From Nigrospora sphaerica (Eukaryota; Ascomycota; Sordariomycetes; Amphisphaeriales; Apiosporaceae), in the NCBI GenBank assembly GCA_018287875.1, contig JAGVVL010000018.1, positions 1,542,501-1,606,500 on the forward strand: a stretch of 64,000 bases of DNA, written 5' to 3'. The position numbers were made by a program, and so were the translations under genes. Positions 815 to 55,000 of the stretch are shown here, one piece after another. Every line of letters starts with the position of its first letter. Positions within the stretch are counted from its first letter, which is position 1. The notes below the pieces were generated by a model, which worked only from the letters and a program-made list of their open reading frames with translations, was not told the origin of the DNA and did no database searches.

Positions 815-2694
815 TTACTCGGGGGGACCCAAGCTCAGGATGTCCAGTCCTCCCTTCAACTCAGTCTTCGAGGGCATCTTACCCCGTCGCATAAGCTCCG
901 CCGCCTGAGACATGACCGGGTCCTGCAAGTCAAACGGTTAATAAGGCACTCCCGCCAGAAGAGACGTGTCGGCGGGTGGAGGAAACTTACGCGACCCATG
1001 CTCGCCATGGCCACAACCGTGTCGCCCTTGCAGTAGTAGATGACGAAATTGGCTTCGGCGGGGTTACCGTCCAATACGGTGTCGTCGAATCCAAGATGGG
1101 TGCTTCCGCAGTAGCGAAGCTGGGCCCCCAGCGCGGACCAGAAGATGGGCGTGAAGAACTCGGGCTTCAAGGCGGGGTTTACGATATGCTGGGCGACGAT
1201 GCGGCCGGATTGCTGGGCAACATTCCAGTGCTCAATACGCACATATTTGCCGTCTCCGCCGGGTCCATGGTAGGGGAATGAGGCGATGTCGCCGATGGCG
1301 TAAACATCCTTGAGACCAACCACGGAATAGGTCTCGTCCGTCTTCAGGGAGCCGTCGCCTTCCAGCTTGACAACCTTGTTCTCCCTCAGATAGTCGGTGG
1401 CGGGCGAAACGCCAACGCCCATAACCACGAGATCGGCCTCCAGCCTGGTGCCGTCCTTCAGCACAACAGCACCGACCTTGGATGGGTCGGAACCAGAGGG
1501 CTCGGCCTTGTCTACGCCGGCTCCCATGTAGAAGTTGATGCCTTTCTTCTCGAAGCTCGTCCGCAGGCCGGCACCGACGACCTCGCCCAGAACCCGCTCC
1601 AGGGGCACCTTCTCCATGCCGACCACGGTGACAGTGTTGCCGTCAGCAACGCAGTTGGCGAGCTCCATTCCGATGAAGCTGCTTCCAATAATGACAATCT
1701 TCTTGCCCTTGTCCCCGATGGCGTCTACAATGGCCTTGGCATGGTCGACACTGCGCAGGAGGAAGATGTTGTCCAGCACTTTAAAGCCTTGCACCGGGAG
1801 ATTGCGGGGAGTGCCTCCAGTCGCCAAAACCAGCTTGGAGTAGTTGAACTTGCCCCCCGCTTTGGTGGTCACCGTCTTCGCAGAGAAGTCAACGTCTGTC
1901 ACTTCTTCCTTCACCACATCCACCGACGCCGACTTGAACCAGTCGTCGTTTCTCCATTGAAGCTTCGATGCGTCCGTCATAAGCGCCTTGGAGAGCTTGG
2001 TACGGTCGATGGGAAGAAGGCCCTCGCTGGTAATCATAGTGACGTGGCCGCCATATCCCTTCTCGCGGAGTCCCTGGACCAGGCCCAGAGCGCCGGAGCC
2101 GCCGCCAATCACAACCACCTTGGCGTCCTGGGTCGCGCTCTGCCGCTTGAGTGTGGGCTGTCGTCGTCCCGACTTGATGCACGCCTCCTCTCCCTGAACG
2201 TAGACGGCTCCGTCCTTCTCGACAACCTTGAAAATCGGAATGGAGTCGAGTGCGGGGGCGTCCTCGACGTCGCCCGTCTTTCCGTTGAAGCACGCTGCCG
2301 GCCAGTTAGCAAGCTCGGACAGCTAGCGAGCCGCTCGAAGGCGCATAGCGGAAGGCTTACCTCCGTGCCACGGGCAAGTGATGCGTCCAGACTTGGTCAG
2401 GACACCCTTGACAAGAGGAGCACCATAGTGAGTGCATTTGGGGCCCATGGCCTGGATCTTGCCGGCAATGTTGGCAAGCAGCACCTTGCCGCCCTCGATG
2501 CCCTCGACCTCAACCTCCTGCTTCTCTCCGGGCTGGAGAGTCAGCGAGGTGACGTCCTTGAGCTTGAACTCGGACATGGCTCGTAGCTGTCGGCCGAAAG
2601 TGTGTTTCTGCGAGAAGGATGTGCCGAGATGAAACGGGGGTCGGAAGAGGGCGCGTGCGGATGTAGGCCGGAGAAGAAGGCGTACGGGATTCAT
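815..2694 (-). CDS. Rieske-domain AIF-like FAD/NAD(P)H oxidoreductase (AIFM3-type)
   Basis: Three exons, read 2694-2361, 2294-991 and 922-815, give 581 aa with introns of 66 and 68 nt. An N-terminal Rieske [2Fe-2S] domain carries CTHYGAPL (Cys87, His89) and, across the first splice, CPWHGACF (Cys107, His110). A pyridine-nucleotide-disulphide reductase fold follows: FAD-binding VVVIGGGSGALGL near residue 155, NAD-binding VIIGSSFIGME, and the second FAD motif YAIGDIASFP. The last exon ends DILSLGPPE, as in AIFM3-like proteins. The start at 2694 adds a basic, Ser/Arg-rich leader resembling a mitochondrial presequence; an internal ATG at 2577 would give a leaderless 542-aa form. By family it should pass electrons from NAD(P)H through FAD to the Rieske cluster; the physiological partner is unknown. 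It diverges from the DAO-family gene. Confidence 0.93.
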
Positions 2695-4318
2695 AAGGGA
2701 AGCGAGGTGGTGGAGGAGGATAGGCGGTCGATGGGGGGGGCTTCTCCTCACGCAGTTAGGTATCGTACGGTCGGCACTGTCAGCACGCACAAACGGGGAC
2801 CCCCGCGGCACGTCTTTGACGGCGGCCGAGGTTTCCCTCGACGCCTTCCACCGACAGCACCAGTAGAGACAACGCGGAAAGTGGGGGTGAATCTCGAGGC
2901 GGTCATCGGCAGGTTGTGTCATCCACGTCATGAGCGGTAATCCAGAGCTCCTCAGTGGCCCAGATGCTGAGAGCTCGGGCAGGGATCACTGGTTTGTACT
3001 ACTAGCACTGCTCCTGAGGGTTGTACCCCGCCAAACGCAGTAGGAGATCGGTACAGTGGGGTGCTCGGGCTGATCTGGGGTCCGCACTGGGATGCTATGG
3101 GATGCGATGGGAATTGACCCGCCTAGAGTCCACGGTCAGGGCTCTCTTTCCATCTTCTTTCGGTTCATTCCATCCCATCCCGTCTACGGGCCCGCACGTA
3201 GACGGCTGCCACATACAGCTGATGAGACTTTCGGGTTCGGGACGGGTGTCATGGACAAGAGACGTAGGAGCGAACGAGTGTGCCATGTTCCGCGGCTGTT
3301 CCCGAGCCGACTAACTGCCTGACTGCCTTGGGCCAGGTCGAGCTTCGCCGGAGACGTAGGTCGCCCGTCCGGCATTTACATGTACCGGAGTACGGACTAT
3401 TTTATTCCATACCCCCTTACTGGTGCACAACAGGCTCCTCTTTCCAGGGACCCCCTGATGAAGTCGGCCAGTTAGTTACCTACCTAGAGATCACCAGGCG
3501 ACAAGGGTGATTCCGTCCCGTCCCCCATCAGGCAAATGACTCTGAACTGCAAGGCTAAATGCGCACTCCCTTCTCGCCTTGGCTCGGATGTCGCCCCCAG
3601 CGCCGTCCGAGGACCCGGGCACCTACGCTGTAGGTAGACGCAGAGCTCCCAGGGGTCAAATGCCACCAGACTTTGGGGGGTCCATTGAGCGGGAGGCTAT
3701 TTGATTGGCGCGCGTTGGCTGTCAAGCGAAGCCAGGCACCGATTAGATTGGCCTCGCCGCCATCGTAGCTTCCATAGCAAACAGACGTCTCGCCAACCCA
3801 TTACCTCTTACATGAGTAGGTACATAAGGTGGGTGGGTACTTAATGTACCTAGATCCATCTTGAGATGATGGTACATGCTCGTCCACGATAAGGAAACAG
3901 CAAACCATGACCTACCTCACCAACAGACCCGTCCGGACTTCACTCCATTTCTATGGACCGTCAATGACCGCGCCCGACCCGATGGCATCAGGTCTGCGCG
4001 ATTCGACATCATGTAGAAGTGCCAAAAACTGCTTTAGACAGGGATAAGATAAGAAACGGACTGCTTGTTCGCTCGTTGGCCGTCAGCATCTGCACCATAA
4101 CTCCACATACCTCCGCATACGGATCGGAAGGCAGATAACGGTTTACTAACCCCGCGGACGCAGTTTTTGCACAATAATACTGTGCATGGACTTCTAGAAC
4201 AGCCTGATCATCTTCAATTAGTCTCGTACCCGATCCATCTTGATATCTCTACCGAGGGTTCCAGGAAAGCCGTGGCCCCAGCTTCGTTTCTGTGAATAGC
4301 CGACCCAAAGCTGCCGAC
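2695..4318. other. divergent promoter region, no gene recognised
   Basis: 1.6 kb between the divergently transcribed Rieske-AIF and DAO genes. It holds TACCTA/TAGGTAC motifs at 3475-3488, 3817-3823 and 3846-3852 but no convincing coding region or RNA gene. Confidence 0.5.
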
Positions 4319-5962
4319 ATGGTCCTTAGACCAGTAGTGGCTTCGCCGGCCGGGCCGGATGGCGTGACCGTGGGTCTCACAAACCCCGATACGACGGTCA
4401 CCGTCAATGTCGACGAATCTGCTGCCATTCCCCCCAAGGGCGAGCGATGGGGGTTCCCACGGGCCGGAGGCCAATCCCTGTCGTACTGGCTTCAGCAGGT
4501 GCGCTGTGACGAGCTGTTGGATCATCGGACGACGCCCGAACTCCCAGAGACGGCCGATACTGTTATTATAGGCAGCGGCGTGAGTATCTCGAAAACCCAA
4601 ACAAGACCTCTCGGGCTGGGAAGGGGCCATCTTTGCGAGCAAGAACTCATGCGTACGCCAGATCACCGGCACGCTCGTGGCCAAACAACACAAGGAAATC
4701 TGGCCGGAAAAGAGCGTCGTGGTCCTCGAGGCGCGAGACTTCTGTTCCGGCGCTACCGGCCGAAATGCCGGGCACTGTAAGCCCGACCAGTGGCGTGGCT
4801 TCGTCAAATACCAAAAGCTTTTCGGCACTGAGCAAGCAATGAAGGTAAGCGCAGCTGCAGGCAAAGGGGCCCTTTTAGTACAGTAGGGATTGACAGCATC
4901 GCTCCGCAGATTCTCCAGAACGAACAAGACACCTGGGAAGCCCTTGTTGCCTATGTTCGCGAGAACAAGGTGGATTGCGACCTGTGGGTCGGAGACACGC
5001 TGGACGTGCCGATGGATGAAGGGACAGCATCCTTGGCGAAGGACATCTTTGCCAGCTACAAGGCGGCCGGGGGCCGAGTGGATCACATCAAGGTCATCAC
5101 CGACCCCGACGAGGCGGCCAAGATGACGAGACTACGAGGGGCCCAAGCCTGCTATGCGTGGCCGGCGTCGACCGTGCAGCCCCGCAAGCTGGTGGCACAC
5201 ATGATGCGCAGCAACCTGGAGAAGGGGGTGAACCTGCAAACCTTCACGACGGTCCGCAACGTGTCGGCTGCTTCTGGCGAGACGAGCCGGTGGACGGTAC
5301 ACACGGACCGCGGCGCCATCTCGTGCGACAATGTGGTGCATGCCTCCAATGCCTACGCCCCGGCCTACGAGCCGTCCCTGCGCCCCCTCATCCGGCCCAA
5401 GCCGCACATGTGCAACAAGGTGCTGCCGCCCCTGGCCTTTTCGGGCTCGGGGGCGCTCCGAAACTCGTACGGCGTCCTGATGCCGGATGGGTCGCTCTTC
5501 AGCATCAACCCGCGCTCCGGCTCCGACGGCGTCGTCATGTTCGGCGGCTCCAACCCCGGCCAGAACAAGCTTGACGACTGGGTCCGCGACCACCCGGAGC
5601 ACTACGTCGACGACGGGCTGGCGAACGTGAAGATGGTCACGGACGAGGTCCGCCGCTTCGCCGATACCAGTTTCGAGGGCTGGAAGGAGTCGGCGGACCG
5701 CGACGGCATGGGGCCCGGCCAGGGGTTCGACTACAGCTGGTGTGGTATCATCGGCATGGCGGTCGACGGCGTGCCGGCCGTTGGCGAACTTCCGGGCAAG
5801 AAAGGCCAGTGGGTGTGCGCTGGCCACTGTGGCCATGGCATGGCGAGAATCTTCAAAGCGGCGCCGGGGCTGGTCAAACTGATGAATGGGCAGACTTGGG
5901 CGGAAACGGGGCTGCCGGAAGCGTTTCAGTTGACGCAAGAAAGACTGGCGAGACTAAAATAG
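4319..5962 (+). CDS. FAD-dependent oxidoreductase, DAO family
   Basis: Three exons, 4319-4579, 4662-4844 and 4910-5962, give 498 aa with introns of 82 and 65 nt. The first splice restores the dinucleotide fold VIIGSG-ITG (residues 82-90, GxGxxG), and exon 2 continues with VVVLEARDFCSGATGRNAGH, the hallmark of the glycine oxidase/D-amino-acid oxidase (DAO) superfamily. The C-terminus has the second FAD-contact stretch WCGIIGMAVDGVPAVGEL and GHCGHGMARI. There is no signal peptide, so it is probably cytosolic. Members of this fungal group oxidise amino acids or related amines; the sequence does not fix the substrate. An upstream in-frame GTG is ignored; the ATG at 4319 is the only plausible start. 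It is followed in tandem by the 179-aa gene, 209 bp downstream. Confidence 0.9.
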
Positions 5963-23562: not shown

Positions 23563-26322
23563 TCACCCGTCGACTTCCATCGGGTCCGGCCCCGTGCCCG
23601 CAGCCACTACACTTTTCTCGTCGGCGTCTTTGCTGGCGCTGTCGGACAAATGACCACCGGCATTGACAGCACTGGGCTTTTCCTCAACACCGGACCCAGG
23701 GCCACTGGTAAGGCGGTATTCGCCATCCTCTTTGAGCTCAATGATGTTCTCCTCCAGCGCCCACTTAGCCAAGAGGCGATCGACGCCAAGCCTGGCAGCC
23801 TCGCTCTTTTCCATGTGCCTACCAACATGCTCGGTCCATTCGTCCCACGACGTCGGCCCCTCGAAAACGCTCGCGCAGTCGGGTTTCGGGCACGCTGACC
23901 GCTGTGGCGGCTGGCGCCGCGTCACCAGACACGTAGTCTGCATCTCCTTGACGTGCGTTTCCCAGTCTACCTGCAATTTGCTGTCACCCTTGGCAATGGC
24001 CTTTTTAATAGCGAAAGGAGCATGCATGCGCCGTAAGTGCTGTGTAAAAAGATCTTTCCGGTTAAACTCATTTCCCTTGCCTTCGACGGTGCTTTGTGGG
24101 CACGACGAACACCTATAGTACGTGAGGCAAAGATGCTGTGACGCTATGTGTCTTTTCCACTCGTTCTTGGACCCGAACGTACTAGGACAGCCGGCGAAAG
24201 AAAAAGCGCAGGGAAATGGCCGTGTGTGCGCTGCCGCAACGTGCTTCCGTAGTGACGAAGAGTCTTTGAATGGCGCATGGCTGCATAAGCTGCATCGCGT
24301 TTCTTGCTTCGGTGTCGATTTCTGCAAGGACCGACGTTGTTTGGGACGGGACGACGGCGTATGATTGTGTTGGCCTTCCTCGAGACCGCATTCGTGCGTT
24401 TCGTGGGAAGATGCCTCCTCGTGTTTCGCGTCGGGCGTAGGATTTGCCAAAGACGCGTGGGCGTGCGCGTGGGCGCGCGCGGCAGCCGCAACCTCGTCAT
24501 TCATGTGACGGACGTGGCTCAATGCTTTAAGCTGCTCTGCGGCTTCCTGCATCTCGGCCGAATCCTCGACGTCGTCAGCTTTTGTGGCGATAGCAGGGGT
24601 CGCGTGAGCAAAGACCGCCGACACGGAAGACTGCGGCAGGCCCATGGGATCTAATCTGCCCAGCCCTTCTGCCCGAGCCGGTGTCTCCGGGTGGGCTTGT
24701 ACGTGGCCCGGGTCTCTATGCTGGAGATCGTGGCGGTGTACCATGGGCGTGGTGGCGGCCAGCTCTCGCGCCTCGAGGAGTATGCGGCCGTCTTCCATGT
24801 CCTTGGCGGACGCCTTGGCGGGCGATGCTGGCCCGACAAGGCGTTTGTAAAGATGGGTCATGTTGTGGGAGTTGATGTAGCCGAGGAAGCAGCAGACTTT
24901 GTCATGCTGCACAACATTCCAAACGGATATGGGCATCGATATGAGTAGCATGGTGGGGGGGCCCAGGAACATGCCTTCGACGGCGATCTTGGGTGCTATC
25001 GCAGGGGCGCCGTGGAGCCACTGGTTAAAGGAGGACATGTCCGGGCTGGCTTCGCCCACAAACGTAGTGCAGACCAGGACGCGGGGCTCGTCAAAGGTCA
25101 AATCGGCCACGGCGTTGGGGTGTATGAGCTGATCCTGCCGCGGCCCCTTGCCCTGCTGTGCACCTCCGTCGGCCGTCGTGCGAGGCGACTGAAGCTGATT
25201 TGCCGGGCGGGCGGTAAGGGGGTACAGGGTGAGCCCCTGGCCTTGGCCCTTGCCGGAGCTCAGGGTCCGGATCACAGGCATCTGGTCCAGGAAGGCCGGG
25301 GTCCTGCCGGCGCCGTTGGTGCGGCCCGAGTCCTGCGCCAACTCATGTTGGCGGAGAACGGCAATCTCCTGGTACAGGCGTTCGGCGCCAAATGAGCGGC
25401 CGGAACTTAGGCGCAGGAAGGCGTCGGTGACATGGGCCGTGAAGGAGCGTCCACTGGCTTCCCGGGGATTACGATCGGGGCCACTGGCAGCAATGAGCTG
25501 CTTCCAGCTGCTGGCGCCGGCGCTGCTGCTGGCAGTGGTGCTGCTACTGGGGCCGCCGATGGCCGGCGCGTCCTTTACGAAGCAACTATCCAGCAAGAGG
25601 AGTATATCGGACTGCGCCTCGTCGAATAGACAACGGACGCCGTTCCACTTGAGTTTCGGGGCTCCTTCGCTTGCATCGCTAGGAGCTGTCAGAACACGGC
25701 TTGACGGCACAGGCTACGCACACGAGGCCTGTCGCTTGCTTACCTTGCCCAGAAAAGCTGGTTGTCAGCCCCGGCGAAGCCATACCCCGCGTAGTGTATT
25801 ATGAGCAGGTGGTCCGGCCCCGAGTTCTCTAGGAAGGCCGCCATGCGCACACCGAGCTTGATGCTCGCCCTGGGCACCGCAGGTATACTCCATTGCTCGG
25901 TGCGGTAGTGGTACTTCTCGCGCAGCGCCTGCTCCAGGGCCACGAGGTCTTTTTCGACCGCATCGTCGTCCTCCCACCGCAACAACAGCACCGTGACGTT
26001 CGAGTAGGGCGACGCCTGGGTTTGTCGGTATATAAGCATCGCCGCATCCTGCAGATGGCGGGCGAAGGACTCGAACTCGTGCCGTTCGGGGGGCGGCGGA
26101 GCGGGGGCTGCCTCCTGCGTCTGAACCTGGGCCGGAGCCTGGGCCGGCTGGGCCTGGTACGGCTGGGGCGGCGGCGCCTAGATGACACGATCCATTGAGC
26201 ATGGCCGCAGACGAGGCCCCGAGGCCATTGGGAGTACTCACGGACTCGTGGGCAAAGGCCGGCTGGGGCTGGGCTTCCACCTTGGGCGCCAGCCTTCGCT
26301 TCTTAGGTGCTGGACCATCCAT
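23563..26322 (-). CDS. caspase-like domain plus C2H2 zinc-finger fusion protein
   Basis: Three exons, 26322-26242, 26177-25744 and 25678-23563, give 876 aa. The head has a basic cluster PAPKKRRLAPK, a likely nuclear signal. A Pro/Gln/Ala-rich linker follows, then a caspase-fold segment: TVLLLRWEDDD strand, LLIIHYAGYGFAG with candidate catalytic His155, and, rejoined across intron 2, ILLLLDSCF with candidate Cys204. The middle holds low-complexity linkers and a globular stretch (RVLVCTTFVGE...HDKVCCFLGYIN). Four C2H2-type fingers follow at about 634-656, 662-687, 695-724 and 768-793. The tail is acidic and ends MEVDG. By family the front could be a metacaspase-like cysteine peptidase (P1 Arg/Lys) or a pseudo-enzyme, and the back a DNA/RNA or protein binder. 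I know no characterised protein of this layout. It lies between the galactanase and sugar-porter genes, on the same strand. Confidence 0.88.
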
Positions 26323-34890: not shown

Positions 34891-36934
34891 ATTGGACGAC
34901 GTTCCGCCTCAGAGGCACCCGGGGCGAAATGTGGTCGGTCCGGCTCTCGTCCCTCTTCTTTCACGCTCAAGCAGATGCACGCACGCACGCACGCGCAGGG
35001 AAACACGGCAACAGGGAACGAAAGGGCCGTGGGCGGCGAGGGGATGAAGGGAACAAATTGATCAGCGACCACCAGCGGGGCCGGGGATGGGATGATATGC
35101 CTTCTGCAGAGGAGAAGCAGAGGCGGCAACACATGAATCGCCGGCACCAGGCGGGCAGCCTTTTCGCTTCGGGGCCCGGAGGTCGGCGGCAGCCCCGGCG
35201 GCCGCCCAACCGTCTCTGTCCGCTCGTCCTCCCTGTCGCCCCATGACGCCATGTGACAACCGCGCGTCAAGGTTCGAGACAGCCTCGTCCCCGCAAGTCA
35301 GGCAGAGCCGTGTTCAGCTCGACGGCGGCGGGTGCTGACAGCCGTGGTGCGTTTGCAGGGAGTCCGGCGGGCATCGGGAATACCTTAGTTGCCGGTTTTG
35401 CCTTGGACGAACGGCCCTTTCGGCCCCCCCCCCCCACGGCACCCTCTCAAGCTCTCCCTTCTCTAGCTCTCCTCGGCCTCCTCGCCTTCTCTACCTTCTC
35501 TGCCTCCTCTGCCTCCTCTACTCCAACGGCCCGAGTCTGAGCGTACGTCTGGGGAAGCACAGTCCGACGCCCCTGTCGTCGTGCTTATGTCCCCCACCCT
35601 CCCCTCACTTCCCCCCCTCGCCGTACTTTTGTGGCTGAGTGCGCGTCTGGGTGGGTACTACGCATGCGCGTGTGCGTGTGCGTATGCGTGTACTTGGTGC
35701 GACTGTCGTATCCAACGGCGCGTCCCTGCAAAGTCAATTGGATGCTGCGCACCATCGCCCGCTGAGACATGCAAGGACGCGCACCCCCCCTCCTAATAAG
35801 GACGTCAGGAGTTTGCCGACTGAATGGCAGCCGGCCTCTTTTCCTCCACCAGCCTTGCGCATCCCCAATCGGTCCGAGCCTGCCGGGCTATACACATCCG
35901 TCATCACGCGCCTATACCAGGCGACCCGAGTGACGACTTTGGTGTTCAGTCCGAAACGGCATCCGCCCTGTCCGGACCTCCTATACGGTGCTGCAGGTGG
36001 AAAACTGCCGAGCCCGTCTAAGCGTGCCGAGGCTTTCGAGACTTTTGTGTGCCCGTCATTTATTTTTTCCTGTTCCCGAAGCTTGCTAGCCGCCGACCGG
36101 TAAGCTCAGCCGACCGACCTGTCCATGAATGTGACTTCTAAAATTATTTACGCTACTGCCCCCTGTTAAGGCAGTTTCCTCCTTCTCCGTCCTTGCACAG
36201 CATTGCTCCATGTTGCCTTAAACCGATGTCTCGGGCGGCCTGTGCCGTCTTCGCCCCGCGATATCCATCACGACTGTGCTTTGTCGGCATTACACGTATC
36301 TCGTTCAATGACGTCACATTGGGACAAGGATGATATGGGTTTCCCAACCCCTGAGGCCTAACCGCACTTCCTACCGCAATCCCATGCCCTCTGCCGAACG
36401 ATCCTACCACGGTGGTAAGTACCCCGTGGGTTGTCACCGGCACAGAATAACAAGGCTGGGAGAGGTGGCATGAGGGGTAGCAGGATACGCCAGGAAGCAG
36501 GAGCGGCTGGGCACGCATGCAACCTCAAAAGACGAATGGGACCACCCCTCCCGGCCCTCGCTTAATAACGTCAGCTTCCCATACCAGCCCAGGTTGGTAA
36601 ACATGCCATATCACGATGGCATGCGGAGTGGATGCGGAGGGTAGGGTATATAACAGAGGCAACCGAGAGCAAGGTCCAGGTCGGTTCTCTTGCATACGAT
36701 TTTCCGGGACAGCTTCCGCGTGAATGGCCCCCACTGTGGACAATCAATCACCCCGTACCTACTGGAAGAGGGGTTGTGCATAACCCCGCGCATGTCTCAA
36801 CCCAGGGAGCACTGATCCTGATGTTTTCCGCCGCAACCGCCTAGTGCTATATGGTATCCTTTGTCTTCCATGTCACAAGAAACCAGCTTTGAGCTCGCTC
36901 TTCGTTGGCTTCTGGCATTGAAACCGTTACAGTT
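34891..36934. other. divergent promoter region of protease genes
   Basis: 2 kb between the aspartyl protease (minus) and the M3 peptidase (plus). It contains (CACG)n at 34977-34996, a 35-nt alternating purine/pyrimidine tract and a TATATAA at 36647-36653, 282 bp before the M3 ATG. No gene is supported. Confidence 0.5.
35659..35693 (+). repeat. alternating purine/pyrimidine (TG/CG) tract
   Basis: Thirty-five bases alternate strictly between pyrimidine and purine, mainly CG and TG steps. Such sequence is prone to left-handed Z-DNA under negative supercoiling. Confidence 0.75.
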
Positions 36935-39241
36935 ATGAATTTCCGCAACCCCCCTCAAGGATTACCCCGGCTCATAGCGACCGACCATGTCATACCTACT
37001 ATGCAACGGATCGTTGCGGAACTTCGGGCCGTCCGCGACGATGTGGTAACTCGGGTGCCGCCCGAAGCTGCGTGCTTCGAGAATGTGGTGCGGCCCTTAA
37101 TTGATGTCGAGAACCGGACAGACGGAGAAATGTCCATGATTGCTATGTTGCGCTATGCGTCGCCCGATCCTGATGCTCGTGCGGCATCTGACGAGGCCTG
37201 CAAGCTTTGGGCCGAGTGCGGCGCCGAGTTGACGACCAAAGCAGACCTGTACGAACTTCTCAAGCGGGTGCGAGTCGATGCCCGAGACCGCGAAGCGGAC
37301 AAATACGTGAACACTCTGTTGATCGACTTTGCGCGAGCCGGGCACGGCAGGCTCGGCCAAGCCGACATCGACCGTCATGTGAGCCTGGTTGGCAAGATCG
37401 ACGAGATGCGGCGTGAGTTCAACCGTAACGTCCGCGACGACCCGCAGTTTCTGTCCTTCTCACCAGAAGAGCTGATGGGCGTGCCCCGACAACATCTCGA
37501 ACGCTTCCGCGAGAATGCCGGGGACGATCCCGGCGGGCTCCTCCACGTCCGGCTACGGCGAGGGGATATGACGGCCGTGCTGGAATACGCCCAAGATCCC
37601 CGGACGCGGGAGAAGATATACATTGCGAACATGACCCAGCGCCAACGGAACATTGAGCTCTTCCGGGACATCATCGCCCGCCGCTGCGAGCACGCCAAGC
37701 TACTGGGGTACGAGAGCCACGCTGCTTTCCGGCTGGAGAAACGAGTGGCCAAGTCTCCCGACTGGGTATTTCGTCTGTTCGACACCCTGGAGGAAGCATG
37801 CTCGGAAAAGGGAAAGGATGAAATGGACGTATTGAGGAAGATGCGGGCTGAAGATAGGTCACGGAATACCGAGCCATTCTCGTCACACCCAGCCGACGAC
37901 TTTCCACCGTGGGATTACCACTACTATGCTCGCTTGCTCGCGGCCGAGAACTCGGTTGACCAGCTCGCAATCGCCGAATACTTTCCGCTCCGGCATGTAA
38001 TATCGGTCATGTTGAAGCTTTTCGCCGCTTGCTTGCAGTTGGAGTTTGTCGCCATGCCTCCTGATCAGACGCAGAGCTCACGGTGGCATGACGACGTCGA
38101 GGTGTGGAGTGTTTGGGACAAACGTGCAGGCCCCGGTAACGATGAATTCGTCGGCTATCTCTTCATGGACCTCCTCTCGAGGCCCAACAAATACCAGGGA
38201 TCCCAAAACGTGACTCTCCAGGCCGTGAGTGTATTCCCATCCAGAACCTTCACCTTTCTTGACCGGGGCCGATGAGGCTTGTGCCCAAACACAGGGATAC
38301 ACGGATGAGAACGGCAAAAGGGTCTATCCTGCTACTCTTCTGATGTGCAGCTTTCCGCGCCCGAGCGATCTGCCCTGCGCTTTACTACGACACGCCGAAC
38401 TTGTCTCGCTGTTTCACGAACTCGGTCACGGCATCCACGATCTAGTCTCGCGCACCTCATTCGTCAGATTCCACGGCCATCGCGCACCGGCGGATTTCGC
38501 TGAGGCGCCCAGCGTGATGCTTGAGAACTGGTGCTGGATGAGGGATGAGCTGAGGCGCATGAGTTGCCACTACAGCCGTCTAAGCCCCCAGTGCCAGGAT
38601 TTGTGGCAAGCCGAGCATCCTGGGCAAGCGGTTCCATCGGAAAAGATCCCTGACGACCTACTGGATTGCCTCGTCGCCAGCCGGGCATTGAACCGGGCTC
38701 TTTGGTTTCTTCGACAACTGTGAGAAGCCCTCTCCAATGTTCCGTCTTGTGTCATATCTGATCAGGCCCAGCGTGTACGCACGCTTTGATATGACTGTAC
38801 ACCACCTGGGAAGCTCCAAAGAGTGCGCGGCTCTCGACTTGCCCGCGCTCTACAGCGACCTCATGGCAAGACTAACATTCATGCATTATCCGGGTGCCGA
38901 ACGGAGCTCGCACGGGTACGCTGACTTCACCCATATAGTGTCTGGATATGATGCAGGGTATTACGCTTATTTGAGGTCAGTCGCCTTTCGATACTGTCTG
39001 CCATGGGCAGGGGGGAATTCAGCTTAACTGACGTCTTTCAATCAGTGCGCAAGTGTTCGCCGCAGACCTCTTTGAAACCCATTTTGCGTCGAATCCTCGC
39101 GACCCGGACGCCTGGGAGAGATACCGAAGAGGAGTTCTTGAGCCCGGAGGCAGCCGGGACGAGCTTCAGATGCTAGAGGATTTCCTGGGACATGCTCCGA
39201 GCCCCCGTGCGCTCCTTGGAAGTTTCGAGTCCGCATCATGA
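36935..39241 (+). CDS. M3-family zinc metallopeptidase (thimet oligopeptidase/MepB type)
   Basis: Four exons, 36935-38224, 38295-38719, 38772-38975 and 39046-39241, give 704 aa. The N-terminal helical half has DPQFLSFSPEEL, and a full M3 catalytic domain follows. The zinc motif is HELGHGIHD (His471, Glu472, His475) with third ligand Glu500 in DFAEAPSVMLENW; further signatures are RFDMTVH and GYDAGYYAYL. It should hydrolyse short oligopeptides in the cytosol or mitochondria. There is no clear presequence. The third exon has two acceptor sites six bases apart (see findings); I use the downstream one because it gives the usual four-residue spacing between RQL and FDM. It is convergent with the tRNA and PAN3 genes. 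Confidence 0.94.
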
Positions 39242-39937: not shown

Positions 39938-40036
39938 TGATGAGAGTGGGATTCGAACCCACGCGGATTGCTCCACCAGGATGCAGGTGTTAAGGTGACC
40001 TTAACCTGACGCCATAACCAACTCGGCCATCTCACC
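39938..40036 (-). tRNA. tRNA-Leu(AAG), intron-containing
   Basis: A 99-nt gene with a 7-bp acceptor stem (GGTGAGA with TCTCATC, one G-U), class II D arm TGGCCGAG...GGC, T arm GTGGG-TTCGAAT-CCCAC and discriminator A. The anticodon loop reads TTAAGG, giving anticodon AAG, and is followed by an extra ~10 nt (about 39989-39998) containing CCTTAA. That can pair with the anticodon loop as in eukaryotic pre-tRNAs. The mature tRNA would be about 89 nt with a long variable arm. One anticodon-stem pair is mismatched in my folding, so the intron limits are approximate. It decodes CUU/CUC leucine codons. Confidence 0.88.
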
Positions 40037-40689: not shown

Positions 40690-43600
40690 CTAGTAACCTC
40701 CGCGGCTGGGCGGTGGTTGTTGGCCCTTGTTAGTGTTGTTGCTCTGCCCGTATTTGAGCAAATCGCCGAAGGCGCTAGCCACTTGCTTTTTGAGCTCCTT
40801 GTATGTGACAAGCATACACGTCTGGTTGTCGCGGCTAGCCAAATAGATACGCTCGTCGGTGCCCGCGTCAAGTTTGTTCAGACACGACAACATGTGCGCT
40901 AGGTTCACCACCGGGTTACCGTTACTGTCGACCTGGTGGAACACATAGTCGCGGAATAGTTTAAGCTGGTATCTCTCGCCGTTCTCGGCCCAGCTGGGGT
41001 CGTTCTCAAATTCGGGCCGCTCGTTAATAGTGCCGAGCTTCATCAAGAGTCGCGCCACTCTGCCATTCTCCAGTTCTCTGAACAAGTGGGACGTCGTCTC
41101 ATCCTCTCTCTGCATGGCGTAGTCCATGGAGTCAAGAACGTGGTGCGCTATGCCGCTGGCCAGATCCACCGCAGTCTTCTGGGCCGCTTGGGTTTGGTTA
41201 TGAGGCTTGGTCAGCAGCCACACTACCCGCTCGCTGAGCTCCGGACTGTAGAGCCTTTTGAATTGCTCCATCGATGCCTGCAGGTTGGCAAGCGAAGGCG
41301 AGTTCGTGCCAATGCTGAGGATCACTCGCCCCACGTGGACGAAATCGTCTTGCTGGAGATCCAAGATGGGCCGCTTGGACTCATACTCCAGCACGTCGAC
41401 TATGGCGCAAGCGCTCAGCCTGATGCGGTTCTTGTCTGTCAAAATGACCTTGCTCAGCTCAATACACCGTGCTGCGAGGCCTTCGGCGTGGATGGCCTTC
41501 AAGGCATTGCAGAACTGGCAAATGTAGCTCCAGAGCACATTCTCCGCAACCGTTGTCGTTCGAGGAAACCGACTGTTCTGCGTCGTCGAAGGGAAGTGGT
41601 GTTCCGCCAGCGTCTTCGAAAGCGGGTGGTAGTTGTGTACGAAGATCAAGGACATGTCACTAAAGTCCCTAGACGTAAAACACTCAATGACCGAGACGAC
41701 ATTGGCGCAATTGATTCGCTTCCAGCGAGCAATCACCGTGACGGACTCCCGCGTGACGGACTGGACATTAGTGAGTCTGCGGAGGCAGTATGTGTTGCCT
41801 GTCTTTTTGGAGACGGCCTTGTAGGTCCAGCTCTTGCACTCCCTGATAGACCCGCCACTCGTCCTGACATCGAGTGGCACAAGTGTATGGTATTGGGCGA
41901 CAGTCGGTAAGTGCATGCTGGGCAGAACCTGTCTGGTCGCCTCCGATTTCTTCTGCATATCTTCGCGGATCTCGGTTGGGATGAAGAAGTCATGCGCTTG
42001 TCGTTGGTAACTGGCCATGTCGGACCTATGGGGCCCCACGGGCGCGTACTGATGATACTGCAGAGGCTGTGCCGGTGCTTGGTACGCTGCCTGGGCCGTG
42101 TAAAACGGCGCGCTCGCCCCCGCCATACTGTGCTCTTCGGCATAGGGGTTGAATTGCGAGGGGGCCAGGCTTTGTGTCATTGTCGACAAGTTAAAGGGAT
42201 CGGGATACCCAGTCGTCTCAGCCGAGCCTCCATTGGTGGCAGCCGGTGTACCCAGTTCGTAATTTTGGGATTGGGGGGTAAACTCCCTGATGGTGGCCGG
42301 GTTGAAAATAGAGCTCTCGGCTTCCTGAGCTAGCGCAGTCGAAGAAACTCGTGAGCTACGTCCCGTGATGGGGAAGACTGGGCGAGGGAAGATGAGCGTA
42401 CCATTGGGCGCGGCCTTCGGGGTAAAGGGAACAGCATTGGCTGCCTGTGACGAGAAGCTGGACTTCTTGCCGCCAGGCTGTAGTTGAGCCGGTGTAAACG
42501 AGGGAGAGTCAACATTCAATGATTTCTTGACGCTAGTGGCCTTGTTAGTAATATTTCCGAGGGGGTCATCCCCCAAAGTATACTCTTCCTCCGGCATGGT
42601 CTGGCGGGGCTGCTCTGGTGCGGGATTCTCTGCGGCTGGCTTAGACGACTCGGGCTGCACCGGCGGCTCTACCACGGGATCCTCTGTTGTGGGCTGGCTT
42701 GACTCCGGGGGCTCGACGTTCAACAGAAAGGCTGGTTCTCCTGTAACAGGCGGCGTACGGACTGTCTGCTCAGGCCTAGCAGGGTTGTCCTGCTGGCGGT
42801 TCGCATTGCCTATGCCAGTGGACCCCAAAGCTTGGAAATGAGTTGTAGCTGCTGGCTGACACCTTTTGGTCGGCAGGCCTGCGACGGCAGCGTAACTTGC
42901 TGTGAGACTTGAGGGGAAGGCTGGGACCAAGGCACTCATCGGAAGTGGCGAGAGCGGTTGTTGCCGGCCCGATAGTCGTGATCTATTTTGGTACCATGTA
43001 GGCCTGTAGCCCTTCTGCTGAATAGTATTGGCAGCTTGATGCAACGATGGGAAACGTTCATCGTCGCTTGGCGTTTCTACTGCGCCCGGTTGGGAACTGG
43101 CTGGCTCCTTCTCGCTCAGAGTCTGTTGAGGGCTATTGCCCTTGTCGCTCCGAGTTTGTAAAGGGACATCGTCCTCTTCGGCTGGAGTCTGTTCCGCGGT
43201 GCTGCCCGCCGCACTCTCCAGCAATGATGAGAGCTCATCGCCGTCGTCTGGCTTCTTTTCGCCTGGAGTTGGTTGGGCACTGTTGCCGGCTGCACCCTCG
43301 CGCGTCTCTTGCGCACCGGATCCCTCCTAAGACATGGCGGAAGTAATGGCGCTTCTGTAAAGTCACCGAGGCTCGAGCCGAGGATTTGGCGTTCAAGTAA
43401 TTTCCCAGTTCAGAATGATGGCGAGAGAACCCGAGTAGAGATGCCGACCATGCGTGGAGGAAGATATTGACTTGGGGGAGGGAGCACAAGCACGGGCGCC
43501 AGAGCACGGGTGGCAACTTACCTGTCTGTAGAACTGGACGTGCCTTTGTTCTGGTCATGATTAAAGGCGCAGCCCTGGTCTTCATATCGGCAGTGGCCAT

Positions 43601-48418: not shown

Positions 48419-50047
48419 TTACTCCTTATTGGCGAATCGCTGGTGGATCCTTGCGATTTGTTCGTCGACGTTGACATTGGGGGTGTGGCTGGCAGGTACC
48501 TGACTTCGCCCTTCAGGGTTCCCATCATAGCTATTAAGCGCGGCACGTTTCCTTCTCGCCATTTCCTCCTCGGTGATCGGTTGACCCGTTACCCCGTCGA
48601 ACAAGTCGCTCCGCTGACTGGCAAAGCGTTTCAGGTTATTTGCCACGTCGGCAGTGGCCATGTTGGCACCCTGGTACCGGGATTCGGCCTTTGCCTTTTG
48701 CTCCTTCCACCGGGGATCCAGCAGCTCAATTCTCATGTGCTCTTCAAGTTCATTCATTGGGATGTGCTGCTTGCAGTTCGGACACAGCGCCATATGCGCC
48801 CCCTGCTTGTTGGCGGCACGTGCGGCAGCGCGAGGAACGTAGTTCTCCTTGATCTTCATAGGACCATTGATGCCCTTGGCGTCGGCCTGGGCTTGCTGCA
48901 TTCTGGCGCGCGCTTCTTCTCGTTCCCGGATTCTTCGACTGTCTTCATCTTCATGCATGGCATTGGCACCCGTAGGAACCATAGTTCCATACCCAGGCTG
49001 GGCTGGCGGTTGTTGCGGTTGATAGGCCGCTTGTACGCCGACCATGGGTTGCGGGCCGGAGTGCGCAGGGTGATGGGGAATGTTGTAGTTGGCCTGAGTC
49101 GCGTGGCCTGTGTAGCTGGCGCTGTCCTCTTCTGACGGGAAACCCTCCTCGATACGCAGGTTGGCATTGACCGACACCTTGGCCTTCTGTTCGAGTGAGG
49201 CATACTGCAGGTCGTTGAGGGAAGTCGGCGGCGGCAAGTTTGCCTGGTCATCTGCTTCAGTGAAAACGATGGTCTCCACGACGACAAAATCATGCCAGTC
49301 GATCTGTGCGTATGTAAGGCGCTCTTTCTCGGCATCCTCTTCCTTTTTGATCTTTTCGTCTTCCTGGTATGCAAGCCATTCCGCCCTTTGTTTGGCCCGT
49401 GTCAAAATGTGGAATTTGTTCTCGACGTTGTGCTCCAACTCTGCGATGCGCTCCTGCTGGAGCCGGCCCCCCTCGCCGTCGACGCCGGCGCCCCGGAGCA
49501 GTGTGGCATACTGGTCGGTGAGGTGTTGGAAGAAGCCATGCAGACTGTGATTGGGCCGCAAGAAATCCATCTGGGGATTGCCGACCTCACGCTGGACCAA
49601 CTTTTGCATGAACTGCCTGCCGTTTTTGGCAACGAATAGCGCAGTCAGCTTGACCACGTCCAGATCCAGCGAGGAGATGTTGGGCATGCGCGCGGAGAAA
49701 GTAAAGGGCGGGGGCTCCGGGGGCCCCTGGGGCTTCTTCTCCTCGGCCGGCGCAGCAGCCTCACCTGCACGGCCGGCACTGACGACATTACCGCGCCCCT
49801 CGCGGATTTCGCTAAGTCGCCATAGGTAGTAGGGGTTGTAGGCGTCGGACGGATCGAGAAAGCTGAATTTGGGGTTGCTTCTCTCCCTCTCGCGAATGCG
49901 CTCCTCGAAGGGCAGACCGTTTCTCGCGACAAAGCCGGCGGTTTTTTCGAGGATGGTTCTGAATTCTTTAGGGGGGAGGACAACGCCCTGGGGAGGCTTG
50001 ATGTCGTCAAGGGCAGCAGCTGAATCACCGTTAGTGGTCGCGGCCAT
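48419..50047 (-). CDS. prp21: SF3a complex subunit 1 (SF3A1/Prp21), U2 snRNP splicing factor
   Basis: A single exon, 542 aa. Two SURP modules are visible, at ~30-82 (TILEKTAGFVARNGLPFEER, NPKFSFLDPSDAYNPYY) and ~128-184 (DVVKLTALFVAKNGRQFMQK, NPQMDFLRPNHSLHGFF). A charged helical region, the conserved IDWHDFVVVETIVF block and a Cys-containing segment (ALCPNCKQHIPMNELEEHM) follow. As in yeasts and other fungi, the C-terminal ubiquitin-like domain of animal SF3A1 is absent, and the protein ends soon after ARIHQRFANKE. It assembles with SF3A2 and SF3A3 on U2 snRNP to stabilise branch-point recognition in the nucleus. It is divergent from PMT1. Confidence 0.95.
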   Translation of the reverse strand: MAATTNGDSAAALDDIKPPQGVVLPPKEFRTILEKTAGFVARNGLPFEERIRERERSNPKFSFLDPSDAYNPYYLWRLSEIREGRGNVVSAGRAGEAAAPAEEKKPQGPPEPPPFTFSARMPNISSLDLDVVKLTALFVAKNGRQFMQKLVQREVGNPQMDFLRPNHSLHGFFQHLTDQYATLLRGAGVDGEGGRLQQERIAELEHNVENKFHILTRAKQRAEWLAYQEDEKIKKEEDAEKERLTYAQIDWHDFVVVETIVFTEADDQANLPPPTSLNDLQYASLEQKAKVSVNANLRIEEGFPSEEDSASYTGHATQANYNIPHHPAHSGPQPMVGVQAAYQPQQPPAQPGYGTMVPTGANAMHEDEDSRRIREREEARARMQQAQADAKGINGPMKIKENYVPRAAARAANKQGAHMALCPNCKQHIPMNELEEHMRIELLDPRWKEQKAKAESRYQGANMATADVANNLKRFASQRSDLFDGVTGQPITEEEMARRKRAALNSYDGNPEGRSQVPASHTPNVNVDEQIARIHQRFANKE

Positions 50048-52047
50048 CTTGACGGTGCGTCGGTATCAAGACCCTGGTGATGGATGCGATGCACACAATC
50101 AGCTACCAAGTGTCGTCGCGTCCGGTGGGGCGGGTCGCGTCGAGACGGGCGGCCGAATTCTCAGCGTTGGGAGAGCGTGGAGCAGCCGGAAGCCTGGAAA
50201 GTGCCACGGGCCGCCAGCGAGCGTGTCTGTGTCGTGTGGCCCCGGGATGGTGGCCGTCAAGCGATGCAAATGGGGAGATGCAACGGGCGCGACGTCAATC
50301 CAACAGTATACCTACGATGCAGCTACTAGGCTGAGGTACTGATAGTGGCAGTTGTGTTGAAGCTCCCAGCGGTAAATTTTCCGGGTCCCATTGGGTCCGG
50401 CGGCAGGATTATCCGGGTGATCAATAAAGTTTAGTGGGAATGGGGATTAACGGGCAGGCATGGGCTGAAGGCAGGCCCATTGCACCAGACCAAAGACAGA
50501 TGCGCGTCGAGAGGCAAGTGGGGATGACAGGTGTTCGAGTGTCCGAATCGCCATTCGTATCTGACGCGCTCTCCCGTGTCTCCTCGTACTCGTTGCCCGC
50601 TTGTAATTTGGCGTGTCGCCCGAGGGGCCATCCTGGCCCGGTTGCCCGGTCGCGGGCAAATGAGCGCACACTTGGTCCCGAAGCCGTCACGGGAAAATGG
50701 GGGCGTCTCGTATCCAGGCGTGGAAGCGTGCACTCAATTATTCATGTCGCGCGTAGCCGTCTATGGGGGTTGGCGGTTGTGAGCGGAGCGTACTTTTATG
50801 GATAGGTACTTCGTAGGTAGGCTTCGAGAAGCAACTGGAGTCCATACCTCTTTACAAGGGATGCTTCGAAGCTTTGTCCACACCCTGAAGACACTGGCAC
50901 CTCTTGGACTGGGAGCCCGGATCCCTGCACAGACAGGTGGAATCTACATAGGTTTACTAGGTACTATGTAGGTTGGAAGGGAACACATGGACAATGGGCA
51001 GCAGGGAGACCTTGCGTACATCTCGTCGGTAATACGGAATATGCATCTCGGTGACAGACACCCTCACAACCCCCAAGTCTAGGTACATCAGGTAGTACCT
51101 ACACACAAGCAGTGATGGAAGGATGGACTCGCGGTTACCTTGTGTTACCCTGCCGTGTCCCTCCTTCCCTATTGGCCTAGGGATGCGCAGCCTATTTCCG
51201 CCCGACCACGTCCACCCCGTAGACACCTTGCAGGCCGGAAAATGTTTCAATCATCTTTGGCAAATTGTATTCTTAGACAACCCTCTTGGGTCTTGGCCTG
51301 CTGAGGCTGATGAGGGGTCTAATTCGGGCAGTGGGAGGGTCAAAACGAGCGAATCAGCCCGCCTAGATCAGACGCCAATCCCCGAACGGACCGCCCGAGA
51401 CGACGCGCTGGCGGGCGGCCCAGGAGACCCCTGTCGGGGCCATCGAGCTCTGTGTCTCTGCGCGTGTCCCTTGCTGCTGGGGGTTTCGTGTCCCAAACCC
51501 CGTGAAGTCGGATGGGATGAGGCCACTGTAGCATTAAGCATAAGTACAGCTCGACTGCGGACGCGGGCGCGCTAAGGCGGGCCTGTCAAGAAACTTATCG
51601 TGAGCGCAGCTGCACGGCACCCCTTTCCCATCTGATCTCCCGTCCCTCGTCCAAATACCCATTGCTCGGGACCCTTCAAGATTGCCCTCCAGGGGATTTT
51701 TTACTCGTGAGGTTTTCCGTATAATGAGCAATCCTTTTTATTCCTGACGTTCCTTCACTCTCCTTTCCTCTTGTCCTTTACGTCCCCTGCTCACGGCCCC
51801 GGCTGCACAAGGCACGACCACCAACGTGCTACGTTGTACCAGAGCTCCTGCTCGGGGACCCGCAGTAGCAGCAGTACTTACTTCAGTAGTTGCACGCACG
51901 GCAGACCTGTAGCCTCCCAAAAGAAGCCACGCACACCTCTTCGATCTCCCGCCCTGCGACCTGCGATTTTCGCAGCCTTTTCCCAAGGTTCTCCTTCGTC
52001 ACGACCCTCGCGACGCCCTATCGAGTCCTTGCGACAAGTTTCCAACC
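50048..52047. other. divergent promoter region of SF3A1 and PMT1 genes
   Basis: 2 kb with TAGGTAC/GTACCTA motifs clustered at 50803, 50958, 51080 and 51094. No gene or RNA is recognised. Confidence 0.5.
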
Positions 52048-55000
52048 ATGGCGAAAGCCACCGCGGCGAAGCCCAAGGGCGACTCGCCTCCCAATGCGAA
52101 GCCCACGGCTAAGAAGCATGACGACTATACCTCGGACGGTGTTGAGGATAACGATGTGTTCCTGCTGCCCGTCTCCGACTACAATGTCATGGCTGTCCTG
52201 ACCATACTCGGCGCCATTGTGCGCCTTTTCCGCATCTACCAGCCCACCAGTGTCGTCTTCGACGAGGTGCAGTAAGTCGAGTCCCTCTCTGGCGCCGCCA
52301 ACTACGGACCTGGCTGCGGACAGCGTCGCTAACCCGGTTCCTCTCTCCCAGCTTTGGCGGTTTCGCTTCCAAATACATCAAGGGCCGCTTCTTCATGGAC
52401 GTCCACCCGCCGCTGGCCAAGATGCTCATTGCCCTCTGCGGCTGGCTTGCCGGTTTCAACGGGGACTTTGACTTCAAGGACATTGGCAAGGACTACCTGG
52501 AGCCGGGTGTTCCTTACGTGGCCATGCGCATGTTCCCGGCCATCTGCGGCATCCTGCTGGTGCCGACTATGTTCTTGACGCTGAAGACGATGGGCTGCCG
52601 TACCGCCACTGCTGCCCTGGGTGCTTCCTTCATCATTTTCGAGAACGGCCTGCTGACCCAGGCCCGCCTGATCCTCCTCGACTCGCCTCTCGTCATTGCC
52701 ACAGCTTTCACCGGCCTGGCCTTCATGTCCTTCACGAACCAGCATGAGCAGGGCCCCTCCAAGGCCTTTTCCGCTGCCTGGTGGTTCTGGCTGGTCATGA
52801 CGGGTCTTGGTCTCGGTGTAACCGTGAGCATCAAGTGGGTTGGCCTCTTCACCATTGCCTGGGTTGGGGCTTTGACTCTGGTCCAACTCTGGGTGCTGCT
52901 TGGCGACACCAAGACCGTCACCATGCGCATCCTCGCCAAGCACTTCATGGCTCGCGTCTTCTGCCTCATCATCATTCCCGTGACCTTCTACATGGCCATG
53001 TTCGCCATCCACTTTGTGTGCCTGTCGAACCCCGGCGACGGTGACGGTTTCATGAGTTCCGAGTTCCAAGCAACCCTGAACAACAAGGGTATGCAGGATG
53101 TTCCCGTAGACGTCGCTTTCGGCAGCCGTCTGACACTTCGCCACGTCAACACCCAGGGTGGCTACCTGCATTCCCACCCCCTCATGTACCCCGGAGGCAG
53201 TCAGCAGCAGCAGATCACCCTGTACCCCCACAAGGACGAAAACAACATCTGGCTCGTTGAGAACCAGACACAGCCTCTTGACAGCAAGGGTGAGCCCATC
53301 AACGGAACCGCTGCCTGGGACAACCTACCCGAGATCCAGTATGTCAAGGATGGCGATGTCATCCGCCTCTACCACCTTCCCACTCACCGACGCCTCCACT
53401 CGCACGATGTCCGTCCCCCGGTTTCCGAGGCTGAGTGGCAGAACGAGGTTTCTGCCTACGGATACGAGGGCTTCCCTGGTGATGCCAACGATCTGTTCAA
53501 AGTGGAGATTGTGAAGAAGCAGTCCACGGGTGCCCTTGCCAAGGAGAGAGTCCGGACGATTCAGACCAAGTTCCGCCTAGTTCACATCATGACCGGGTGC
53601 GTTCTCTTCTCCCACAAGGTCAAGCTCCCCGACTGGGCATCCGAGCAGCAAGAGGTCACGTGCGCGAAGGGCGGTACTCTCCCCAACAGCGTTTGGTATG
53701 TTGAGTACAACGAGCACCCCCAGCTGGGCGCCGATGCCGAGAAGGTCAACTACGTGCACCCCGGTTTCTTGGGCAAGTTCTGGGAGCTCCAGAAAGTCAT
53801 GTGGAAGACCAACGCTGGTCTGGTCGAATCGCACGCCTGGGACTCTCGCCCCCCTTCGTGGCCCGTCCTGAGCCGTGGTATCAACTTTTGGGGCAAGAAC
53901 AACCGCCAGATCTACCTGATTGGCAACCCCTTCATTTGGTACTCGTCGACTCTGGCCGTTCTCGTTTACGTGCTCTTCAAGGGCATTGCCCTTCTCCGCT
54001 GGCAGCGTAGCTGCAATGATTATGCCAACACTACCTTCAAGAGGTTCGATTACGAGATTGGCTCTTCGGTTCTTGGCTGGGCTCTTCACTACTTCCCTTT
54101 CTACCTCATGCAGCGCCAGCTGTTCCTGCACCACTACTTCCCCGCCCTGTACTTTGCCATCATGGCTTTCTGCCAGATCTACGACTTTGCCACGGCCCGG
54201 TTCGCGATTCCCGGTATCCGCGCCAACCCCGTTGTCAACAAGGCGGGTGTGATTGCTTTGTTGGCCGTGTCGGGTGTCGTCTTCGCCCTTCTGTCCCCTC
54301 TGGCCTACGGCAACGCCTGGACTAAGAGCGAATGCAACCGCGTCAAGGTGTTTTCGACCTGGGACTGGGACTGCAACACTTTCCTTGACAGCGTGAGTGT
54401 CCCTATCCTTGGCATGCCTGCCAGAGCGAGAGGCTGAACGATATGGTGCACCCACACGGGGTTCCAAACGAGTCTCAAGCCTTGGCAAAGCAATTGACGA
54501 TGGATGACTAACCAGGAAAATCTGTAGTACGAGGAGTACAACAAGGAGGTCTGGGTTGCTCCCACCAACGCCGCGCAAACGTCGCAGCCTGCTGGAGATG
54601 CCAAGGCAGCACCCCCACCGCCGGTCCAGAACCAGCAGCCGATTCAGCAACAGCAGCAGCCTCAGGAGCCCCCAAACGGGGGCGCGGGCGGCGCGGGAAT
54701 CTCAGGGGCGCCAAAGTTCGAGCCCCAGGGACAGAAGGTCGTCGCCCGCGAGGAGAAGATCGAGTACAGGGATCAAGATGGAAATTTGCTGAACGAAGAG
54801 CAGGTGAAGGCGCTCGAAGGGAAGGTCGAATTCAAAACCAGATACGAGACGCGGACGCGCGTCGTAGACGACGCGGGCAATGAGGTCCCTGTGCCTGCCG
54901 AGGAGCTGGCGGGCCACGGCGTGGCGCCGCCGCACCCCGACGTCGAGGGTGCCGAGAGAAGCACCAAGCAGGTGCAGCGGGACGAGCCCATCCGTGGCCA

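Follow-up and report, generated by a model that had tools for sequence, protein, structure and literature searches.

A zinc-finger protein of Nigrospora sphaerica with a predicted caspase fold and a replaced catalytic histidine, and its homologues in ascomycetes

Introduction

In the literature, the caspase-like proteins of fungi appear chiefly as metacaspases and enzymes of cell death; the type I metacaspase AtMC1 is an active enzyme. The present report concerns a gene at positions 23563–26322, on the minus strand, of a stretch of 64,000 nucleotides from the ascomycete Nigrospora sphaerica (assembly GCA_018287875.1, contig JAGVVL010000018.1, positions 1,542,501–1,606,500; hereafter the window), the product of which joins a predicted caspase-fold domain to four C2H2 zinc fingers. 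AtMC1 resembles it in having a zinc finger and a caspase fold in one chain (PMC4357240), but its finger is N-terminal and LSD1-like, whereas in the window protein the fingers, four in number, are C-terminal and of the C2H2 type, and the His/Cys pair is broken. The YS pseudo-orthocaspases and TbMC4 keep the p20 fold with Tyr replacing the catalytic His (PMC6426788), and the window protein likewise has Tyr at that position; they are, however, prokaryotic or trypanosome proteins in which the catalytic Cys is replaced by Ser, while the window protein has kept it, and C2H2 fingers are not part of the proteins described in the accessible text of that paper. In Raptor, the caspase-like domain lacks catalytic activity and serves to bind substrates (PMC6325617); the window protein gives a weak match to the Pfam model Raptor_N (E 0.042, 14.1 bits against a cut-off of 27), but Pfam lists no HEAT or WD40 family for it and zinc fingers are present instead.

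Proteins related in architecture come from a class combining a homeodomain with a rhodanese domain, published as MoHOX4, pah7 or NCU00100 (PMC5666362). Deletion in this class led to smaller conidia in Magnaporthe (PMC2779367) and to an altered distribution of perithecia in Podospora (PMC3360767). The same make-up (PMC5666362, PMC6596325) is found in a sister gene from the window's own genome and in its orthologues; they share with the window gene the caspase-fold module, a second domain and a neighbouring intron position, and differ by the homeodomain as the DNA-binding part, the rhodanese domain and an intact His/Cys pair. A term search did not find the word 'caspase' in the main text, as accessible, of the fungal homeobox papers PMC8406175, PMC6596325, PMC5666362, PMC3360767 and PMC2779367.

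With regard to the layout itself, the literature searches gave no study of a protein with both domains among the matches listed, which agrees with the earlier note on this DNA, whose author knew of no characterised protein of this kind. A search with six orthologue locus tags returned unrelated papers only, and the accessible parts of a review on fungal cell death (PMC12881547) and of a Sclerotinia transcriptome paper (PMC5372324) contain nothing on the window gene. The combination of a caspase fold with C2H2 fingers is already known to annotation, since an orthologue from Colletotrichum (P0059, 62 percent identity) bears both domains in its name, 'Putative peptidase C14, caspase domain, Zinc finger C2H2-type, transcription factor Grauzone'; this is, however, a database name alone, no study of it being found among the matches listed.

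Gene model and homologues

When the possible splice combinations of the minus strand were scanned over 23563–26322, 32 open models were obtained, one of them with good consensus sites. This three-exon model is translated into an uninterrupted protein of 876 residues and consists of the following parts:

26242–26322, minus strand: exon 1, residues 1–27 (splice scan)
26284–26310, minus strand: KKRR-like basic N-terminus in exon 1
26178–26241, minus strand: intron 1, 64 nt, GTGAGT..CTAG (splice scan)
25744–26177, minus strand: exon 2, residues 28–171 plus two bases of codon 172
25679–25743, minus strand: intron 2, 65 nt, GTAAGC..CTAG, at a position shared with sister genes
23563–25678, minus strand: exon 3, remainder of residue 172 through residue 876, then stop

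A homology search with the window protein yielded 407 proteins at E ≤ 0.001; the best 120 of these were aligned and used in every count given here on the C2H2 class, the window protein being added where 121 rows of this class are mentioned. It should be pointed out that this set is weighted toward the Xylariales-type sequences closest to the window and that several rows are gene fragments. For most homologues, the identity is 55 to 75 percent and the coverage of the query 85 to 100 percent; the closest one, P0001, shows 92 percent identity over 80 percent coverage with a gap at residues 150–165. Their database names are mostly hypothetical or C2H2-type, and those named by organism belong to Sordariomycetes and Leotiomycetes.

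Extra residues at the second splice junction are present in none of the homologues (0/120) and 111/120 are free of an insert at the first one, rows without the region being scored as having no insert. Because the homologous proteins run across both junctions, a reading as two separate genes has been rejected; the locus is confirmed as a real single gene, and the joining of three exons into one protein in the earlier note stands. Rfam at its gathering threshold gave no match inside the gene. The N-terminal cluster described there as resembling a nuclear signal is also borne out, a KKRR-like motif being seen in 107/121 aligned sequences.

Zinc fingers, second domain and caspase fold

Downstream of the basic cluster, the protein contains the following domains and segments:

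25219–26009, minus strand, split by intron 2: predicted caspase-fold domain, residues about 84–325 (orthologue model and fold searches)
24829–25089, minus strand: second conserved domain, residues about 369–455, common to the homeobox sister class (model confidence low)
24505–24573, minus strand: strongly conserved helix, residues 541–563 (conservation and model)
24226–24294, minus strand: C2H2 finger 1, residues 634–656
24133–24210, minus strand: C2H2 finger 2, residues 662–687
24022–24111, minus strand: C2H2 finger 3, residues 695–724
23815–23892, minus strand: C2H2 finger 4, residues 768–793

The four C-terminal fingers, already recognised in the earlier note, are nearly invariant, each of their 16 zinc ligands being kept in 120 or 121 of the 121 rows, and the paired Cys/His ligands of repeated fingers that characterise C2H2 proteins are all present in the window protein, the Pfam models zf-C2H2_4 (15.8 bits, cut-off 27) and zf-C2H2 (8.4 bits, cut-off 25.2) staying below their cut-offs. 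Expressed as the mean share of the commonest residue, conservation is highest in the helix 541–563 (0.95), the fingers (residues 630–795; 0.93) and the helix 59–80 (0.92), followed by the tail 796–830 (0.87), the second domain (0.86), the N-terminus (0.72), the caspase domain (0.69) and the linkers (0.53–0.58). A model of P0080, based on 84 sequences from both classes, suggests a beta-alpha-beta-beta-alpha-beta order for the second domain at low confidence (block means 50–68); such an order could fit TRADD-N, which has an RRM-like fold (PMC8195603), and no claim of a link is made at that confidence.

The caspase fold proposed in the earlier note is supported by structure prediction and fold searches for the Podospora orthologue P0115 rather than for the window protein itself; by way of this model, the caspase/haemoglobinase fold of clan CD, family C14, would be present. 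A phmmer search of the PDB sequences with a segment of roughly residues 57–213 gave chance matches only, a profile (A1) found there a single zinc-finger chain (E 0.0059), and Peptidase_C14 was not listed by Pfam for the window protein, the best score among ten orthologues being 18.3 bits, under the cut-off of 21.4.

Catalytic positions and their variation

The earlier note had read His155 (HYAGYG) and Cys204 as a protease dyad. Both residue numbers are exact in the 876-residue translation; the dyad itself is not supported, the relevant positions being as follows:

25794–25796, minus strand: His155, off the catalytic position (alignments)
25782–25784, minus strand: Tyr159, where the catalytic His would be (alignments)
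25582–25584, minus strand: Cys204, at the catalytic Cys position (translation and alignments)

The placement is based on a comparison between a family profile, made from 114 sequences of the caspase domain, and L001, the metacaspase of the window's own genome, which carries both YSGHG and DSCHSG. The LHYSGHG of L001 aligns, in a weak match (10.3 bits, four target sequences), with the family motif (Y/H)YAG(H/Y)G, and since its second His falls there, residue 159, a Tyr in the window protein, is the catalytic position; a profile of the homeobox class, scoring only 0.1 bits against L001, nevertheless also puts its His on the second one. In metacaspases the catalytic His is that following Tyr, Ser and Gly (PMC3881575), and on this weak alignment His155 corresponds to the first, non-catalytic His of HYSGHG. 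With regard to family C14, the window protein thus lacks the catalytic His (Tyr159) and has the catalytic Cys (Cys204 in LLLLDSCF), and in place of the metacaspase motifs YSGHG and DSCHSG it contains YAGYG and LDSCFVKD.

Across the 121 rows, position 155 is occupied by Tyr in 89, His in 28 and Phe in 2 (gap 2), position 159 by His in 57, Tyr in 55, Phe in 3 and Cys, Val and Asn in one each (gap 3), and position 204 by Cys in 92, Gly in 21, Tyr in 4 and Val in 3 (gap 1). Only 4 of the 28 rows with His155 have the Cys, the other 24 containing Gly (21) or Val (3) in a count made by eye; therefore His155 and the Cys do not travel together and, with the alignment on the non-catalytic His, His155 has been rejected as a catalytic residue.

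The pair has changed repeatedly. On a quick maximum-likelihood tree (LG+G4, SH-aLRT support only, the stretches around His and Cys left out of the alignment), at least 22 changes are needed at position 159 and at least 6 at position 204, the 22 changes being the third highest value among 50 similarly mixed columns within residues 60–329. Position 159 is mixed in Colletotrichum and Verticillium, and among the Xylariales-type rows, one half of the tree, the pair is mostly broken.

Sister genes in the same genome

Further members of the family have been found by searching the window's own genome (G000). The gene L017 (C1; positions 2276–5260 of L017) encodes a caspase fold with YYGGHA and LDCC followed by the same second domain; next come the end of a homeodomain (Pfam 14.4 bits, below cut-off, with an exon cut) and, by eye, a rhodanese-like stretch. 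Among seven homeobox-class orthologues, Pfam recognised rhodanese over the cut-off in 7/7 and the homeodomain in 5/7, neither being listed in the Pfam scan of the window protein. By its architecture, L017 matches the MoHOX4/PAH7 class. In the homeobox class (121 rows), His is found in 78/82 and Cys in 116/116 of the rows covering the position.

The gene L020 (C33; positions 470–2798 of L020) combines a caspase fold with a zinc-knuckle-like motif C-x2-C-x6-C-x3-H, the ligand columns of which are kept in 92, 92, 88 and 88 of 94 rows; a zinc-knuckle pattern demanding a Lys matched 0/93 sequences of this class, despite the Cys columns kept in the alignment. The Cys position there is taken by Ala (56), Ser (30), Cys (4) and Thr (1), with 3 gaps, i.e. 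by Ala or Ser in 86/91, and the His position by Tyr (35), His (28) and others, so that the caspase fold of the L020 class is, judging by these residues, dead. His and Cys motifs have been seen by eye in L018 (C5) and L019 (C18) as well. In the latter (1694–3760), YYGGHG and LLDCCYAG are followed, by eye, by a protein-kinase-like stretch; Pfam listed nothing for that frame.

By our reading, intron 2 of the window gene lies at most one base from an intron of L017 and is identical in phase to an intron of L020. A domain tree was calculated from randomly taken C2H2-class (18/113) and homeobox-class (15/80) rows, 15 zinc-knuckle-class rows, the three queries, L018, L019 and L001; it groups the C2H2 and homeobox modules at 95/93 support, with long-branch warnings and an unsettled bootstrap.

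A paralogue matching the finger part only, at 50 percent identity there, is located in L016 (C1; positions 7201–9105 of L016). A second finger gene (1886–2611) lies about 6 kb from it, and the region 4145–5090 is a long run of GQGRA-type short repeats with open frames on both strands, i.e. a simple-sequence array.

Possible roles of the protein

The explanation we prefer, at a probability of roughly 0.6, is that of a conserved, probably nuclear ascomycete regulator, the fingers of which bind nucleic acid and the caspase fold of which, together with the second domain, serves as a binding platform. The protein would enter the nucleus, the four fingers would most likely contact nucleic acid, and the caspase-fold module with the second domain may hold a protein or peptide partner in a Raptor-like way. 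Judging from the residues present, in the window species the module would bind and not cut, its protease activity presumably having been lost, whereas in one clade of 20 rows, the names of which include Fusarium, Purpureocillium, Neonectria and Cordyceps, it may still cut, both canonical residues being found there in 20/20. This clade is among the observations that weigh against the preferred explanation: with the pair fixed in it and present in 43/121 rows overall, catalysis has not been lost everywhere. Further, shuffling of labels gave a mean of 40 changes (35–48) at position 159 against 22 observed and a mean of 25 at position 204 against 6, so ancestry shapes the pattern and the positions are not freely drifting. 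The window protein itself still has Cys204, the structure model belongs to an orthologue at 55 percent identity, and the Pfam scan of the window protein gave no model over its cut-off, C2H2 models included.

These observations could also fit an ancestral working protease that remained active in lineages with both His and Cys and became a pseudoprotease in Xylariales and others, a scenario we consider possible but doubtful. It agrees with the 20-row clade, the mixed state of Colletotrichum and Verticillium and the mostly broken Xylariales-type half, as well as with the homeobox module, which retains the pair and groups with the C2H2 module; the close Colletotrichum rows varying at 159, however, look like a tolerated change, the domain tree is burdened by the long-branch warnings and the unsettled bootstrap, and the counts of changes do not separate gain from loss. 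That the protein is an active caspase-like protease on chromatin in all species, with Cys204 assisted by another base (His155 in the window), is unlikely: the Cys in 92/120 rows with a residue at 204, the 43 complete pairs and the intact homeobox class speak for it, but His155 aligns with the non-catalytic His, 24 of the 28 sequences with His155 have no Cys, and the Cys is lost outright in 28/120.

Improbable, too, is an arrangement in which the homeobox member (MoHOX4/PAH7-like) is a working nuclear caspase-like protease that has the C2H2 and zinc-knuckle members as pseudoprotease partners, proteolysis thereby being aimed at chosen promoters. The pseudoproteases would then bind the homeobox member or its substrates, by analogy with c-FLIP and caspase-8, and developmental transcription regulators of ascomycetes would share one caspase-fold module. 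An ordinary C2H2 transcription factor with the caspase-fold region as a relic without a role would explain why no other large part is as conserved as the fingers and why a finger-only paralogue exists; a relic, however, would break up, whereas the caspase region is present in orthologues covering most or all of the protein and the second domain is much better kept than the linkers, so this explanation is very improbable. Returning to the preferred regulator, the role in stress or self-recognition signalling supposed in the earlier note is unsupported, the gene being widely conserved and the homeobox sister class being tied to development by the published deletions.

Other features of the window

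Rfam at its gathering threshold found one tRNA gene in the window (39938–40036, minus strand). The large open frames at 40690–43326, 48419–50065, 52152–54437 and 36893–38275 resemble, by eye, those of PAN3, SF3a subunit 1, a protein O-mannosyltransferase and an M3-type peptidase, respectively.

Significance

A conserved caspase-fold module is housed in proteins that look like transcription regulators, one of them belonging, by architecture, to a homeobox class with deletion phenotypes. If confirmed, this would connect gene regulation in fungi with the caspase fold, and the family, with its catalytic pair kept, eroding or lost, would offer a natural series in which the conversion of a protease into a binding domain could be followed.
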